Assembly (NCBI GenBank): GCA_022072085.1
Contig: JAJVII010000018.1
Location: forward strand, 62,001 to 126,000
Direction of reading: 5' to 3'
Length of the DNA stretch: 64,000 nt
Source: Phycisphaerae bacterium
Lineage (GTDB): Bacteria; Planctomycetota; Phycisphaerae; JAJVII01
Shown here piece by piece: positions 9,038-18,325 of the stretch. Below the pieces are notes generated by a model that worked only from the letters and a program-made list of their open reading frames with translations, searched no databases and was not told where the DNA came from. Each line of letters starts with the position of its first letter. Positions within the stretch are counted from its first letter, which is position 1. Both the position numbers and the translations under genes were made by a program.

Positions 9038-9108
9038 GCCATCACCTCATCCCAGCCGGTCGCCCCAAGCCGGCCGGCCTTCCATTCGCCATTCGGTTTT
9101 CATCATTG

Positions 9109-9133
9109 ATTCGACATTCGACATTCGACATTC
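9109..9133. repeat. Short tandem repeat (ATTCGAC)n
   Basis: About three and a half copies of the 7-mer ATTCGAC fill the spacer between the DUF1549/1553 gene (ends 9137) and the DUF1501 gene (starts 9037). Related ATTCG words occur just upstream (9081-9096). It is one of several short intergenic repeat families in this window. Confidence 0.8.
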
Positions 9134-9136
9134 CCC

Positions 9137-10726
9137 TCAGTGCCGGTACTGGAACTCCGTGCTGTTGACCAGCGCCCACATCACATCGCCGAGCACGTTG
9201 CCGCCCTTGCCGCGCGTGGCGTCGGTGTAGACCTTGATCGCCCGCAGTTCCTCGCCCGTCGGGTAGCGCGACAGGACGGTCAGATACAACTCGTCCATCG
9301 CCTGGCCGGGCTTCTGGCGGGCGGTCCGGCCGATCGCTCGCATCGTCGGCCCGCCCTCGATCTTGTTGCGCACGTGGCTGGAGTTGAGCAGGTGCAACTG
9401 CTGGTCGGCTGAGGTCGCGTTGTTCCGCTCCGACGCCAGGCCGGTGTCGCGCGGCGGTCGGCCGAACAGATCCAGGAACGAACTCGTGATGCTGCCGTCG
9501 GGCAGCGCGATCGAGCGCATCTCGCGCGGGACCCAGGTGAAGGGCTCGGGGATGCGGCTCTCGTACTGCTCGTCGGTGCCGGTGATCTGACAGAGGGCGT
9601 CGATGAGCACCTCGGCTTCAAGCCGCCGCAGCCGATAGGCCGCGAACAGTTCGGGCCCCGCGGCCTTGCCCGGCCCGGGCACGGACGAGAGCTGGTAGGT
9701 CGTCGAGTTGAGGATCAGCCGATAGAGGTGGACGCTGTCGAACTTCGACTTGACCAGCTCGGAGGCCAGCCAGTCCAGCAGCTCGGGATGGCTGGGCGGG
9801 TTGCCGGCGCGGAAATCGTCGGGCTCCTGCACCAGCCCGCGGCCCATGAGGCGATACCAGATGCGGTTGGCCTGGCAGCGGGCGAACCAGGGGTTGTCCG
9901 GCGAGACGAGCCAGTCGGCGAAGGCCTCGCGCGGGTCGCCGTCGGCGGCCAGCTTCACGGTACTGCCGTCGGGCAGCAGGGCCGACGCGACCGGCGGGCT
10001 GGCCGGGTTGAAGTTGAAGTAGACGATCTCCTCCTTCCACTCGTCGGTGGACTTGTAGCCGACGCGGGAGAAGAAGGCGGCCAGCCCGGCGGCGCGGTCC
10101 GCGGGCCAGTCCGTCATGCGGTCGCCCATGAACGCCAGGGCGGCCGACTTGGCCAGGGTCGCCGGGTCGCGGCTCTGGACCGCGCGGTAGAAGTTCACCT
10201 GCCCGACGCGGAAGTTGCTCCCGCTGGCCGTCAGCAGCTCGCGGGCAAACCGGTCGTAGGGCATGCCGTCGGCCAGCGCGGTCCGCACCCAGCGGTGATA
10301 GGCCTGCACCGCGTTGGGCCAGAGGTTGATCGGGAACTCCGACTTGATCCGCAGCAGGTCGCCCCACTGCATCGCCCGGTAGTCGGCGAAGCGCGGGTCG
10401 GCCAGCAGGCGGTCGATCAGCCTGGCCCGGCGGTCGGGGGCGCGATCGGCAAGGAACGCCCGGGCCTCGGCCGCCGTCGGCAGCGTGCCGGTGACATCCA
10501 GGTAGACGCGGCGGACGAAGACCGCGTCCGAACAGACGCGGGCGGGCGAAACGCCCTCGGCATCGAGCCTGGCGAAGATCAACTCGTCGATGCGGTTGGC
10601 CGCCGCGGGCTGGCCGGCTCTCTCGTAGATCGTGATCGTCGCCTCCGGCTGGGTCGTCGGGGCGCTGACACCCCAGGCGGGCGCAGCAGCCAGCAGCGCG
10701 ATCAGGCCTGTCATCCACGCCTTCAT
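9137..10726 (-). CDS. DUF1549/DUF1553 protein (planctomycete PSD1-type)
   Basis: A 529-residue exported protein with a signal peptide (MKAWMTGLIALLAAAPAWG). DUF1549 covers about 45-230, with RIDELIFARLDAEG, RRVYLDVTGTLPT and WGDLLRIK. DUF1553 covers the second half, with NPWFARCQANRIWYRLMGRG, SHPELLDWLASELV and YRLILNSTTYQLSS. These domains are typical of planctomycete secreted proteins and are normally paired with DUF1501 proteins, as here. Unlike many relatives it has no cytochrome c (CxxCH) domain, so it is a short version. The frame is open to 11971, but the part above 10726 is a shadow of the next gene. The ATG at 10726 overlaps the stop of the upstream FkbO-like gene in an ATGA, which implies translational coupling. 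Confidence 0.88.
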   Translation of the reverse strand: MKAWMTGLIALLAAAPAWGVSAPTTQPEATITIYERAGQPAAANRIDELIFARLDAEGVSPARVCSDAVFVRRVYLDVTGTLPTAAEARAFLADRAPDRRARLIDRLLADPRFADYRAMQWGDLLRIKSEFPINLWPNAVQAYHRWVRTALADGMPYDRFARELLTASGSNFRVGQVNFYRAVQSRDPATLAKSAALAFMGDRMTDWPADRAAGLAAFFSRVGYKSTDEWKEEIVYFNFNPASPPVASALLPDGSTVKLAADGDPREAFADWLVSPDNPWFARCQANRIWYRLMGRGLVQEPDDFRAGNPPSHPELLDWLASELVKSKFDSVHLYRLILNSTTYQLSSVPGPGKAAGPELFAAYRLRRLEAEVLIDALCQITGTDEQYESRIPEPFTWVPREMRSIALPDGSITSSFLDLFGRPPRDTGLASERNNATSADQQLHLLNSSHVRNKIEGGPTMRAIGRTARQKPGQAMDELYLTVLSRYPTGEELRAIKVYTDATRGKGGNVLGDVMWALVNSTEFQYRH

Positions 10727-14892: not shown

Positions 14893-16161
14893 ATGAAGGT
14901 GCTGCTGGTGGGGTCGGGCGGACGGGAACACGCAATGGCCTGGCGGATCGCCGCTTCGCCGCTGTGCGATCGGCTTTTCGCGGCGCCGGGCAATCCCGGG
15001 GTCGCCCAGCACGCCGAGTGCGTCGACATCGACGCCGAGGACGTCGACGCCGTCGCGAAATTCGCGATCAGCAACCGGATCGACCTGACGGTGGTGGGCC
15101 CGGAAGACCCGCTCGCGGGCGGGCTGGTGGACCGGATCGAGGCGGCCGGCCTGAAAGCCTTCGGGCCGGTCGCGGCGGCAGCGCGGCTGGAAGGCGACAA
15201 GGCCTTCGCCAAGCACCTGATGCGGCAGCACGCGATCCCGACGGCCGAGGCCCGCATCTTCGACGACTTTGAAACCGCGACCGAATACGTGCTGACGCGG
15301 ACCGAGCCGCTGGTGGTCAAGGCGGCCGGGCTCGCCAAGGGCAAAGGCGCCTACGTCTGCAACGACCCTGAGCAGGCCCTGGACGCGGTGCGTGAGATCA
15401 TGAAGGACCGCGTTCACGGGGCAGCCGGCGACCAGGTGGTGATCGAGCAGCGGCTGAGCGGCCCGGAGGTCAGCGTGCTGGCGTTCACCGACGGGCGGAC
15501 CATCTACATGATGGAGAGCGCCCAGGACCACAAGGCCGTCGGCGAAGGCGACACCGGCCCCAACACCGGCGGCATGGGGGCCTACTGCCCCGCGCCGGTC
15601 GCGACCGACAAGGTGCTCGGCCAGGTCGAACGCGAGGTGCTCGTGCCGGTCGTCGACGCGATGCGCCGCGCGGGGGTGACCTACAAGGGCATCCTCTACG
15701 CGGGCATGATGCTCACCCCCGGCGGGCCGCGGGTGCTGGAATTCAACTGCCGCTTCGGCGACCCCGAGGCCCAGCCCATCCTCATGCGGCTCAAGAGCGA
15801 CCTGCTGGCCACGCTGCTGGCGGTCGCCAACAACCGGCTGGACGAAGTGACGCTGGAGTGGGATCCGCGGCCGGCGGTCTGCGTGGTGATGGCCAGCGGC
15901 GGCTACCCGGGCAAGTACGCCAAGGGCAAACCGATCGCGGGCATCGAGGCCGCCGAGTCCGAGCCGGACGTGAAGGTTTTTCAGGCCGGCACGAAGCGGG
16001 CCGGCGGACAGGTCGTTTCCAGCGGCGGGCGCGTGCTGGGCGTGACGGCGCTGGGCAAGACGATCCGCGACGCCCAGAAGCAGGCCTACGCCGCGGTGGA
16101 CAAGATTCACTTTGAGGGCGGCTTCTGCCGCCGCGACATCGCCGCAAAAGCAATCAAATAA
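14893..16161 (+). CDS. purD: Phosphoribosylamine--glycine ligase
   Basis: A 422-residue cytoplasmic enzyme that ligates glycine to 5-phosphoribosylamine with ATP, forming GAR in purine synthesis. It opens with the glycine-rich LLVGSGGREHAMAW. The ATP-grasp region has VVKAAGLAKGKGAYVC, GPEVSVLAFTDG, QDHKAVGEGDTGPNTGGMGA, and GILYAGMML followed by EFNCRFGDPEAQ, all diagnostic of PurD. The length is normal. The ATG at 14893 follows GAGGTG. The TAA stop lies two bases from the inverted repeat that frames the four-helix-bundle gene. It is not in a pur operon here. Confidence 0.97.
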   Translation: MKVLLVGSGGREHAMAWRIAASPLCDRLFAAPGNPGVAQHAECVDIDAEDVDAVAKFAISNRIDLTVVGPEDPLAGGLVDRIEAAGLKAFGPVAAAARLEGDKAFAKHLMRQHAIPTAEARIFDDFETATEYVLTRTEPLVVKAAGLAKGKGAYVCNDPEQALDAVREIMKDRVHGAAGDQVVIEQRLSGPEVSVLAFTDGRTIYMMESAQDHKAVGEGDTGPNTGGMGAYCPAPVATDKVLGQVEREVLVPVVDAMRRAGVTYKGILYAGMMLTPGGPRVLEFNCRFGDPEAQPILMRLKSDLLATLLAVANNRLDEVTLEWDPRPAVCVVMASGGYPGKYAKGKPIAGIEAAESEPDVKVFQAGTKRAGGQVVSSGGRVLGVTALGKTIRDAQKQAYAAVDKIHFEGGFCRRDIAAKAIK

Positions 16162-16250
16162 GAAGTGCTGAGTGCAAAGTGCTGAGTGCGGAGTGCTGAG
16201 TGCGGAGTGCTGAGTGGGGAGTGCTGAGTGCTGAGAGAGGGTAAGCCGGC
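16162..16250. repeat. Left (GTGCTGAGT)n array and inverted-repeat arm
   Basis: About six direct copies of a GTGCTGAGT-type 9-11-mer run from the purD stop to the start of the four-helix-bundle gene. The outer 26 bases (16164-16189) are perfectly repeated in inverted orientation at 16657-16682. The inner end carries GAGAGAGGG, which serves as the ribosome-binding site of the gene at 16251. Together with the right arm this makes an inverted-repeat-framed unit of about 520 bp. Confidence 0.9.
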
Positions 16251-16631
16251 ATGGGGCAGCACGGAAGAATCGAGCGTTTCGAGGACCTGATCGCCTGGCA
16301 GAAGGCCCGGCAGATGACTCGGAACATCTACCAGTGCACTTGTCGCAAGCCGTTCGCAGACGACTGGGATCTGGTCAGGCAGATTCGCCGGGCCGCGGTG
16401 TCGGCCATGTCGAATATCGCCGAAGGTTTCGAGCGGAGCGGCCGAAAGGAATTCCAGCAGTTTCTCTCGATGGCCAAAGCATCCTGCGCCGAGGTCCGCT
16501 CCCAGATCTACGTCGTCCTCGACCTTGGCTACGTGGACCCGCAGGAATTCGACGCGCTGATGCGCGGCGGCGAGGAACCGGCTCGCATCATAGGCGGACT
16601 CCGCGCCTCGATCGCAAAGCTGGACAGCTAA
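16251..16631 (+). CDS. Four-helix-bundle (23S rRNA IVS / S23-like) protein
   Basis: A 126-residue protein of the four-helix-bundle family (TIGR02436-like), recognised by FEDLIAWQKAR near the N terminus, then QIRRAAVSAMSNIAEGFER, EFQQFLSMAKASCAEVRSQ and VVLDLGYV. The family includes ORFs of intervening sequences in 23S rRNA and the Avd accessory proteins of diversity-generating retroelements; it binds nucleic acid in the latter. No reverse transcriptase or rRNA lies nearby, so its role here is unknown. The gene fills the space between two arms of an inverted repeat and takes its ribosome-binding site from the left arm. Such framing suggests it moves or is maintained as a unit. Confidence 0.9.
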   Translation: MGQHGRIERFEDLIAWQKARQMTRNIYQCTCRKPFADDWDLVRQIRRAAVSAMSNIAEGFERSGRKEFQQFLSMAKASCAEVRSQIYVVLDLGYVDPQEFDALMRGGEEPARIIGGLRASIAKLDS

Positions 16632-16641
16632 GCCGGACTCT

Positions 16642-16684
16642 CCCTCTCAGCACTCAGCACTCAGCACTTTGCACTCAGCACTCC
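16642..16684. repeat. Right inverted-repeat arm
   Basis: Copies of AGTGCTGAG on the minus strand. Bases 16657-16682 are the exact reverse complement of 16164-16189. The arm also encodes the last residues (VLSAKC) and the TGA stop of the neighbouring GNAT gene, so it has become part of that gene. Confidence 0.9.
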
Positions 16685-18289
16685 CCGCAGGTCCAGGCGC
16701 ATCTTCAGGCCGTCGGCGCCGGGGGCGTAGTAGTCCTTGAGCAACTCCTCGATGACGAAACCGGCCCGGCTGTAGAGCGTGATGGCCGGCGTGTTGTCGG
16801 CCCGAACCTCCAGGCGCAGCCGGGCGATGCCCTCGCGCCGGCAGGCGGCGATCACGTCGTTCAGCAGCAGCCGCCCGTAGCCCCGGCCGCGGTGGGCCGA
16901 CCGCACGCAGAGGCTGTACAGCCGCCCGACCAGCCCGCAGCGCGTGCGGCGGCGCAGCAGCACAGCCGACGCGACCACCTCGCCCTCGTTGCGGATCAGG
17001 TGCGTGCTGGCCCGCGGGCAGGCGAGCAGGTAGCGGAGCTGGCGGCGGTTGAACTTGTCGTCGTCGTTGAAGCTCTCGTGTTCGAGTTGCCAGAGGGCGT
17101 CCAGGTCCTCGCGGTTGGCCAGCGGGCAGGCGGCCGTCGGCAGCGGCGCCGGCGCGGGACGAATCCGCTCGATCGGCTTGACGCCGAAGGCATCCGACGT
17201 GGTCGCGATCGGCGGTCTCAGTTGCGGCGCATCCATCAGCGCACCTCGTTGCGGGCCGACGCTCACCGGCACAATCACCGGCGCAGCCGGCCAGAGGGTG
17301 AACTTGAACCGCCGGGCGGCCGGGCGATAGCTCTCCTTCACCCGGGCCAGGTTCTCGATGTCCCAGTCGTCGCCGGCGTTGCACCAGGGGCGATCGGCCC
17401 AGTACTGGCGGCAGAACTCGCTGTAGATGTAGTTGGCAGACCCCTCGTAGTCGCGGTCGGCCTTCTCGATCAGCACGGAGAAGGCGTCACGCCCCAGCGA
17501 TTCGCCCAGCGTGAAGCCGACCAGGCGGTCGTCAGCGTAGAGCACCATGCCGCGCAGCCCCATGTCGCCGTGCAGGCGCACGGCGCTGGTGCAGGCGATG
17601 ATGTCGTCACAGCGCTTGGCGTTGGGGTCGGCGCCCTGCTGGGCGGCGCGGTCGCGGACCTGCTCGTTCCATGTCTCCAGCATCGCCAGGCAGGGCCCGA
17701 CGTGGGCGTCGGTGAAGGACTCGGTGCGGGCGGCGTAGCGGCGGGCGAACCGGTTGCGGGCCTGGCGCTTGGCCTTGAGGTCCGAGCCCTCCAGCGAAAT
17801 CAGCCGCTCGGTCTGGTAGAGGTAGTCGCCGCTGTTGGGGTGCCGCCGCCAGCCGGGCATGGGGAACCGCCGCAGCCAGGCCTCGTTGACGTATTCGAGG
17901 CAGGTGGCGGCCGGCCGACCGACGCGACCGTTGTGCGTGCGGCACAGGTCGATGGCGTCGTCCAGGGCGCCCAGCAGGTCGCCGTCGCCGAAGGGCGGGC
18001 GGAGGACCGTCAGAGCGCCGTCAGCCAGCGCGAACTGGCAGAAGCATCCGCGCAGCACCGCCCAGTAAGGACGGAAAGGCCCCGCCCAGATCAGGGTGTT
18101 GGCCAGCGTGTAGTCCGAAAGCGGCTCTTCGACGGACAGAAGGAAAGAGTTGAGGACCGCACCGTCGTCGAGGGTCAGGGGCCGAAGCCCCAGCCCAGGT
18201 AAAGGATCGTCGTCCACGGTCTTTTTGAATCGACCTCCCAAAGGGTATGCGAAAACCGCCCGACCCGGTTGTCGAGCGGCCTGACGCAT
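16661..18289 (-). CDS. Fusion of a lysyltransferase-like (DUF2156/FemX-like) domain and a GNAT acetyltransferase
   Basis: About 542 residues. The N-terminal 300 residues resemble the DUF2156/phosphatidylglycerol-lysyltransferase C-terminal group (tandem GNAT-like folds; LKAKRQARNRFARRY, NYIYSEFCRQYW, ARVKESYRPAARRFKFTLWP). The C-terminal 150 residues form a RimI-like GNAT domain with the acetyl-CoA loop SAHRGRGYGRLLL and RADNTPAITLYSRAGF. The first half may transfer an aminoacyl or acyl group, the second an acetyl group from acetyl-CoA; substrates are unknown. The ATG at 18289 is chosen because the upstream TTG at 18325 coincides with a possible -35 box; neither has a strong ribosome-binding site. 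The last six codons and the stop come from the repeat arm, so the original end has been replaced. Confidence 0.75.
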   Translation of the reverse strand: MRQAARQPGRAVFAYPLGGRFKKTVDDDPLPGLGLRPLTLDDGAVLNSFLLSVEEPLSDYTLANTLIWAGPFRPYWAVLRGCFCQFALADGALTVLRPPFGDGDLLGALDDAIDLCRTHNGRVGRPAATCLEYVNEAWLRRFPMPGWRRHPNSGDYLYQTERLISLEGSDLKAKRQARNRFARRYAARTESFTDAHVGPCLAMLETWNEQVRDRAAQQGADPNAKRCDDIIACTSAVRLHGDMGLRGMVLYADDRLVGFTLGESLGRDAFSVLIEKADRDYEGSANYIYSEFCRQYWADRPWCNAGDDWDIENLARVKESYRPAARRFKFTLWPAAPVIVPVSVGPQRGALMDAPQLRPPIATTSDAFGVKPIERIRPAPAPLPTAACPLANREDLDALWQLEHESFNDDDKFNRRQLRYLLACPRASTHLIRNEGEVVASAVLLRRRTRCGLVGRLYSLCVRSAHRGRGYGRLLLNDVIAACRREGIARLRLEVRADNTPAITLYSRAGFVIEELLKDYYAPGADGLKMRLDLRGVLSAKC

Positions 18290-18295
18290 TGCCAG

Positions 18296-18325
18296 ATAAT
18301 GTACCTCGGCTTTTGGCGGCGTCAA
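18296..18325 (-). promoter_or_regulatory. Possible promoter of the GNAT-fusion gene
   Basis: On the minus strand TTGACG (18325-18320) is followed after 18 bases by CATTAT (18301-18296). The predicted transcription start would fall at about the ATG at 18289, giving a leaderless mRNA. Weak on its own. Confidence 0.3.

Follow-up and report, generated by a model that had tools for sequence, protein, structure and literature searches.

An S23 gene between inverted heptamer arrays behind purD in a Phycisphaerae bacterium, and its mobile relatives

What kind of unit places a single small gene between two inverted arrays of short repeats, right behind the end of purD? The question was raised by 64,000 nucleotides of a Phycisphaerae bacterium (assembly GCA_022072085.1, contig JAJVII010000018.1, positions 62,001 to 126,000 of the forward strand), hereafter the window, in which a 126-residue S23 gene encoding a four-helix bundle (16251..16631, plus strand) is the sole gene between two repeat arms. 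After comparing this locus with S23 genes of many other genomes, we consider it likely, on sequence comparison, that this unit, about 0.5 kb long, is a minimal mobile element, whose sole protein, S23, would recognise its own heptamer arrays and move them with or without the gene.

Anatomy of the element and its protein

The initial annotation, made from the window alone, had described an exact 26-bp inversion around an S23/Avd-like gene, and positions 16164-16189 are indeed the exact reverse complement of 16657-16682 in 26 of 26 bases. The annotated repeat unit, the 9-mer GTGCTGAGT, was wrong: the spacing of 7 or 14 rules it out, and the actual unit is the heptamer AGTGCNN. The left terminal array (16164..16240, plus strand) consists of ten such units and AGAGAGG (AGTGCTG AGTGCAA AGTGCTG AGTGCGG AGTGCTG AGTGCGG AGTGCTG AGTGGGG AGTGCTG AGTGCTG AGAGAGG), and the right one (16642..16683, minus strand), whose outer 26 bp are identical to the left arm, consists of five inverted units and AGAGGGA (reversed, AGTGCTG AGTGCAA AGTGCTG AGTGCTG AGTGCTG AGAGGGA). 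The arms match at the outer as well as the inner end, which suggests a single terminal inverted repeat with about five units added on the left. As had been annotated, the ribosome-binding site of the S23 gene (AGAGAGGG) is part of the left array, at its inner end. The predicted RNA fold of the unit was better than that of all 100 shuffles (z -5.7), and trinucleotide-shuffled sequence was essentially free of such arrays.

The encoded protein matched PF05635 (1e-31) and TIGR02436 (1.3e-28, above the curated cut-off). Its AlphaFold model (pLDDT 93.6) matched 2GSC, 2RLD and the Avd protein of diversity-generating retroelements (DGRs; 4DWL and 8UB7) in the Protein Data Bank. Between mobile copies, dN/dS was 0.10-0.15, and S23 is therefore under purifying selection. 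Across 157 S23 sequences, Q44, R47, S51, N55, E58 and E81 (window numbering) were at least 98% conserved and S78 was 91% conserved; the first five of these line one face of helix 2, at intervals of 3-4 residues.

The shared fold, which points to distant homology, raised the possibility that S23 serves, in the manner of DGR Avd, as helper to a reverse transcriptase whose gene lies elsewhere and which copies the RNA of the element or its arrays. Avd acts in DGR ribonucleoproteins, and the strong RNA stem predicted for the arms would suit such a role. However, the window S23 gene, unlike DGR Avd, is solitary between arrays, with no adjacent reverse transcriptase, template or variable repeat, and the only RVT_1 match of the source genome (G000) lies on another contig (C54). 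Moreover, no RVT_1 match was obtained in any of four genomes that carry 1-8 S23 genes (G042 with eight, G059 with seven, G067 with three, and G064), although G042 and G059 are drafts 96-97% complete and divergent reverse transcriptases could have escaped the search. A reverse transcriptase was therefore disfavoured as an obligate partner of S23, and we regard the helper explanation as improbable.

The recurring layout and its occupied and empty sites

We analyzed the generality of the layout in a sample that drew on G000, relatives from its class and named genomes of many phyla (80 loci, Methanophagales archaea among them). For 151 S23 genes with full flanks, an inverted repeat was called at an inverted-repeat score of at least 13, with 300 positions in the same loci as controls. 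An inverted repeat spanned 79% of the S23 genes compared with 2% of the control positions, and a gammaproteobacterial set that was added later and played no part in setting the threshold showed one in 20 of 27 S23 loci. The unit was 7 nucleotides long in 97 of 117 cases and 8 in 15. On the coding strand, the 5′ arm is G-rich and C-poor with a loose YAGKNNN pattern (3.59 bits of information vs 3.10-3.34 bits for shuffled units). Fourteen loci with a weak array or none were also searched with Rfam as candidate rRNA insertions, and no rRNA was found in them.

Could these arrays be ordinary heptamer microsatellites, produced by polymerase slippage and lying beside S23 genes by chance? Heptamer repeats are common in many bacteria, according to an earlier survey cited in PMC4679880, and one element has two alleles whose arrays differ in length by exactly two units. 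Nevertheless, inverted arrays are about 40-fold more frequent across S23 genes than at control positions, and slippage creates neither inverted arms nor a unit that matches the resident S23. We therefore give this explanation hardly any credence.

Comparison of related cyanobacterial plasmids showed that S23 elements are mobile. One such element lies within a gene cluster on conjugative plasmids of Trichormus and Scytonema and is missing from 98%-identical plasmids of Tolypothrix and Nostoc linckia. At this first site, the empty allele reads AAAAAGTAATTAAC and the full allele AAAAA[GTAAT]AAATCAG...S23...CTTT[GTAAT]TAAC, with an exact 5-bp duplication of GTAAT. A relative of the same family occupies a different site in Nostoc ATCC 53789, where the empty allele GG[TTCTA]GGTTATGC and the full allele GG[TTCTA]AATCAGG...S23...GGA[TTCTA]GTTATGC reveal an exact 5-bp duplication of TTCTA. 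A third site is compatible with a 5-bp duplication with one mismatch (TAATG/TTATG), and at other sites the duplication is not clean. One plasmid keeps a shortened S23 relic at the first site, and another has a gene-less array pair at a different site; when whole plasmids were compared for gene-less array insertions, nothing turned up apart from the S23 element and a single degenerate insertion rich in G. The mobility proposed in the initial annotation is thus supported for relatives of the window element, with occupied and empty plasmid sites, two of them with exact duplications, whereas the window copy itself was not shown to be a recent insertion.

These alleles also bear on whether the unit is a non-mobile RNA device, in which the arms would pair as an RNase III site or an autoregulatory stem, and presence and absence would reflect loss and recombination. 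The intervening sequence (IVS) in the 23S rRNA of Coxiella burnetii has a comparable anatomy: it encodes S23p, its stem is cut by RNase III and variable-number tandem heptamers (GACAGAT) precede the open reading frame (ORF) (PMC4990558). The ribosome-binding site inside the window array would also fit such a device. However, empty alleles with exact flanking duplications, together with one family at two sites, need insertion, and the cognate solo arrays around the genome would be left unexplained. An RNA device may coexist with mobility; as a replacement for it, we find the device quite improbable.

Three S23 elements of cyanobacterial plasmids lie in CRISPR operons: two, from different genera, separate cas6 from cas4, the third separates cas10 from cmr3, and related plasmids have no element there (L235, L279 and L282). 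One of them, from Pseudanabaena galeata (L279), departs from the usual layout in that its two inner arrays both read AAAAGCY with one and the same orientation, and the inverted part, which is shorter, lies outside them.

Repeat units and their resident S23 proteins

The initial annotation had raised the prospect of further TIGR02436 genes in the genome, and seven were found at other sites, all beside 7- or 8-mer arrays, which brings the total in G000 to eight. The units differ from locus to locus. Six of the eight genes lie between inverted heptamer arrays, with the units GTGGCTA, GGCTAGR, GGGGATC, AGTGCNN, GATTTCN and GAATGTC; two others (L005 on C17 and L006 on C48) are near-paralogous, have an octamer, carry both arrays upstream of the gene and share sequence that includes, in L006, the end of a tRNA-Pro gene. 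AGTGCNN arrays lie at about two dozen further sites of G000, but the 26-bp arm, which had been suggested as a mark of spread, is not a shared hallmark of S23 loci, each of which has its own unit. The AGTGCNN pattern occurs 54 times in G000, at most nine times in any other of the 61 genomes of the class sample, and not at all in 50 of the 61. Its backwards control, CGTGANN, matched 10 and 2 times in two genomes of the same genus (G040 and G016), where it is perhaps another resident unit.

The unit also follows the protein. When S23 proteins from different loci were compared in pairs, 22 of the pairs with at least 50% identity had the unit in common (at least 85%), compared with 6.2 expected by permutation, and none of 2000 permutations reached 22. 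Gene-less arrays of G000 were counted in 0.79 Mb of the genome with the S23 loci masked: its own units occurred 7, 0, 3, 9, 3 and 8 times, and 87 foreign units occurred 0.3 times on average, those present being mostly near-copies of its own (Mann-Whitney p 6e-8). In 0.4 Mb of Sphaerospermopsis, 109 arrays of period 7 were found compared with 7-15 for other periods, and its own units occurred 22, 10, 8, 3 and 2 times compared with 0.29 for foreign units (p 3e-10). The leading unit there, GGGGACT, the reverse complement of CCCCAGT, is the same repeat as the Nostoc GGGGA(C/T)T given in PMC4692102.

The same paper reports 186 GGGAATC arrays in Xanthomonas, among which there are 70 convergent pairs. 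Although no Xanthomonas genome could be recognised among the 369 genomes drawn, the best partial match by identity in our sample to Xanthomonas XCC0516 (60% over part; a broken gene, L394) is flanked by GGGAATC. Its genome is the only one of 14 gammaproteobacterial genomes with dispersed GGGAATC arrays, including an inverted pair. As a search for phage cargo, the XCC0516 sequence was compared with 50,697 phage records, with no S23 match.

By sequence comparison, then, repeat unit and protein are paired, and cognate arrays are dispersed in the genomes that carry the gene. Both results back the proposal of the initial annotation that the protein acts on its own repeat; the action itself we infer from them. 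They also bear on whether S23 is a passenger, namely cargo or a repressor in a unit of the kind known as miniature inverted-repeat transposable elements, moved in trans by an unrelated transposase. The inverted ends, small size and 5-bp duplication resemble such elements. However, the ends share no sequence across loci, only a period of 7 or 8, a single transposase would not be expected to recognise such different ends, and the unit tracks the sequence of S23, which is the only gene common to all elements. We therefore consider a passenger role unlikely.

Several further arrays are of note. Two hairpins of the GAATGTC unit in G000 share 44 bp at 98%, and their surroundings are otherwise different, a further sign of movement. 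In the window itself, a gene-less array of this unit, which is that of the S23 gene at L008 of the same genome, follows immediately on the stop codon of an ORF on the minus strand (9106..9137, minus strand). Between the tRNA-Glu and tRNA-Lys genes of G000, AGTGCNN arrays form an inverted pair with no gene between them (L031 on C14). On a plasmid of Dolichospermum flos-aquae CCAP 1403/13F (NZ_CP051207.1), 35 places in 69 kb match one S23 element query, which suggests that the plasmid is crowded with arrays.

The purD site, a putative mechanism and related systems

The window element does not lie in a 23S rRNA gene. Its surroundings are as initially annotated: purD (14893..16161, plus strand) has its stop codon two bases ahead of the left array, and a convergent GNAT-domain-like ORF (16661..18325, minus strand), assigned in the initial annotation and from the sequence, has its last residues, GVLSAKC, and its stop codon encoded by the right array. 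An empty site in close relatives was found for the gene but not always for the arrays. None of the 23 relatives with a readable flank (23 of 23) has an S23 gene after purD, and the window gene is thus lineage-specific at this place, yet three of the 23, the nearest relative among them, carry a heptamer array there. In the other two of these three, which are more distant, arrays of other units stand right after the purD stop. Gene ends are common landing places for arrays, or places where arrays survive.

Several observations weigh against an element mobilised by S23. The nearest relative, which belongs to another genus, has a GAATGCG array, a related unit, at the same place after purD with no S23 gene; part of the window locus may therefore be old and, judging from the sequences, could predate the gene. 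No target duplication is visible around the window copy. Clean duplications were found at two sites only: further occupied and empty pairs have diverged junctions and one locus (L410) shows a replacement of about 25 bp instead, and a 5-bp duplication is thus not universal in surviving copies. About 13% of S23 genes have neither signal at the thresholds used. The correlation between protein and unit is weaker when mean similarity is taken (8 of 2000 permutations). Finally, neither structure nor profile matches revealed a recognised nuclease or recombinase fold in S23.

Taking both sides together, we still favour movement of the element by S23 and provide a putative mechanism. S23, probably a pentamer like its crystallised relatives, would bind the array of its cognate heptamer, the nucleic acid being either single- or double-stranded. 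The segment bounded by arrays would then be copied into new, mostly intergenic sites, with cutting and joining carried out either by S23 itself or by enzymes of host replication or repair; a staggered joint could leave the 5-bp duplication. The same machinery may act in trans to spread hairpins and arrays of that unit that lack the gene, and replication slippage may lengthen or shorten the arrays. Pairing of the arms in the transcript would allow insertions in operons or rRNA to be tolerated, and such RNA pairing, as modelled, probably matters where the element lies in those places. In this scheme, we infer the recognition role of S23, its form of binding, the agents of cutting and joining, copying as opposed to excision, and movement in trans.

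The element had the defining features of none of the mobile elements with which it was compared. Repetitive extragenic palindromic (REP) sequences go with REP-associated tyrosine transposases (RAYTs), which are IS200/IS605-like Y1 HUH transposases. As in that system, a single-copy gene lies between inverted short repeats and gene-less copies of the repeat are scattered in the same genome. However, S23 has no HUH or Y1 domain (only S23 profile matches and an Avd-like fold), and its ends are tandem heptamers with locus-specific sequence rather than one conserved palindrome. In contrast to a classical insertion sequence, the S23 element has no transposase of known nuclease fold. With the rRNA IVS it shares the S23/PF05635 ORF, inverted stem-forming termini and, in Coxiella, heptamers; it differs in that the window element is intergenic, and free-standing copies occupy sites that are elsewhere empty, in some cases between target duplications, and are accompanied by cognate arrays scattered through the genome.

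Cyanobacterial dispersed heptamer repeats have been known since about 1990. Such intergenic arrays, described as short tandemly repeated repetitive sequences or long simple sequence repeats, include Nostoc GGGGA(C/T)T and Xanthomonas GGGAATC, often in convergent pairs (PMC4692102), and Beggiatoaceae TAACTGA (PMC4679880). The searched parts of these two papers do not mention S23, whereas here the arrays are tied to resident S23 genes with the same unit. A link between S23 genes and heptamer arrays outside rRNA was not found in the open-licence literature, to which our search was confined.

Since no compared element shares its defining features, the class would be categorically new; if the rRNA IVS is taken as the parent kind, it would be a variant of that kind. 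Given the features of the Coxiella IVS, we expect this class to include rRNA IVSs, even though the window element lacks the location that defines an IVS, and both rRNA IVSs and the heptamer repeats of cyanobacteria are probably manifestations of the phenomenon seen here. A wider proposal is tentative, and we hold it with less than even confidence: S23/Avd-like four-helix bundles may themselves be DNA (or RNA-to-DNA) recombinases, of a new fold, with tandem heptamers as their recognition sequence. S23 elements would then form a new class of mobile DNA that has rRNA IVSs as its special case and accounts for the spread of heptamer arrays in cyanobacteria and xanthomonads.

If true, the reading of the unit as a mobile element would tie together three things so far unexplained, namely the abundant S23 genes of unknown function, selfish rRNA intervening sequences and dispersed heptamer repeats, and would add a class of mobile element, present across most phyla sampled and served by a single protein without a known nuclease fold. 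It predicts that XCC0516 is flanked by GGGAATC and, more generally, that the repeat of a genome would be readable from its own S23 genes.
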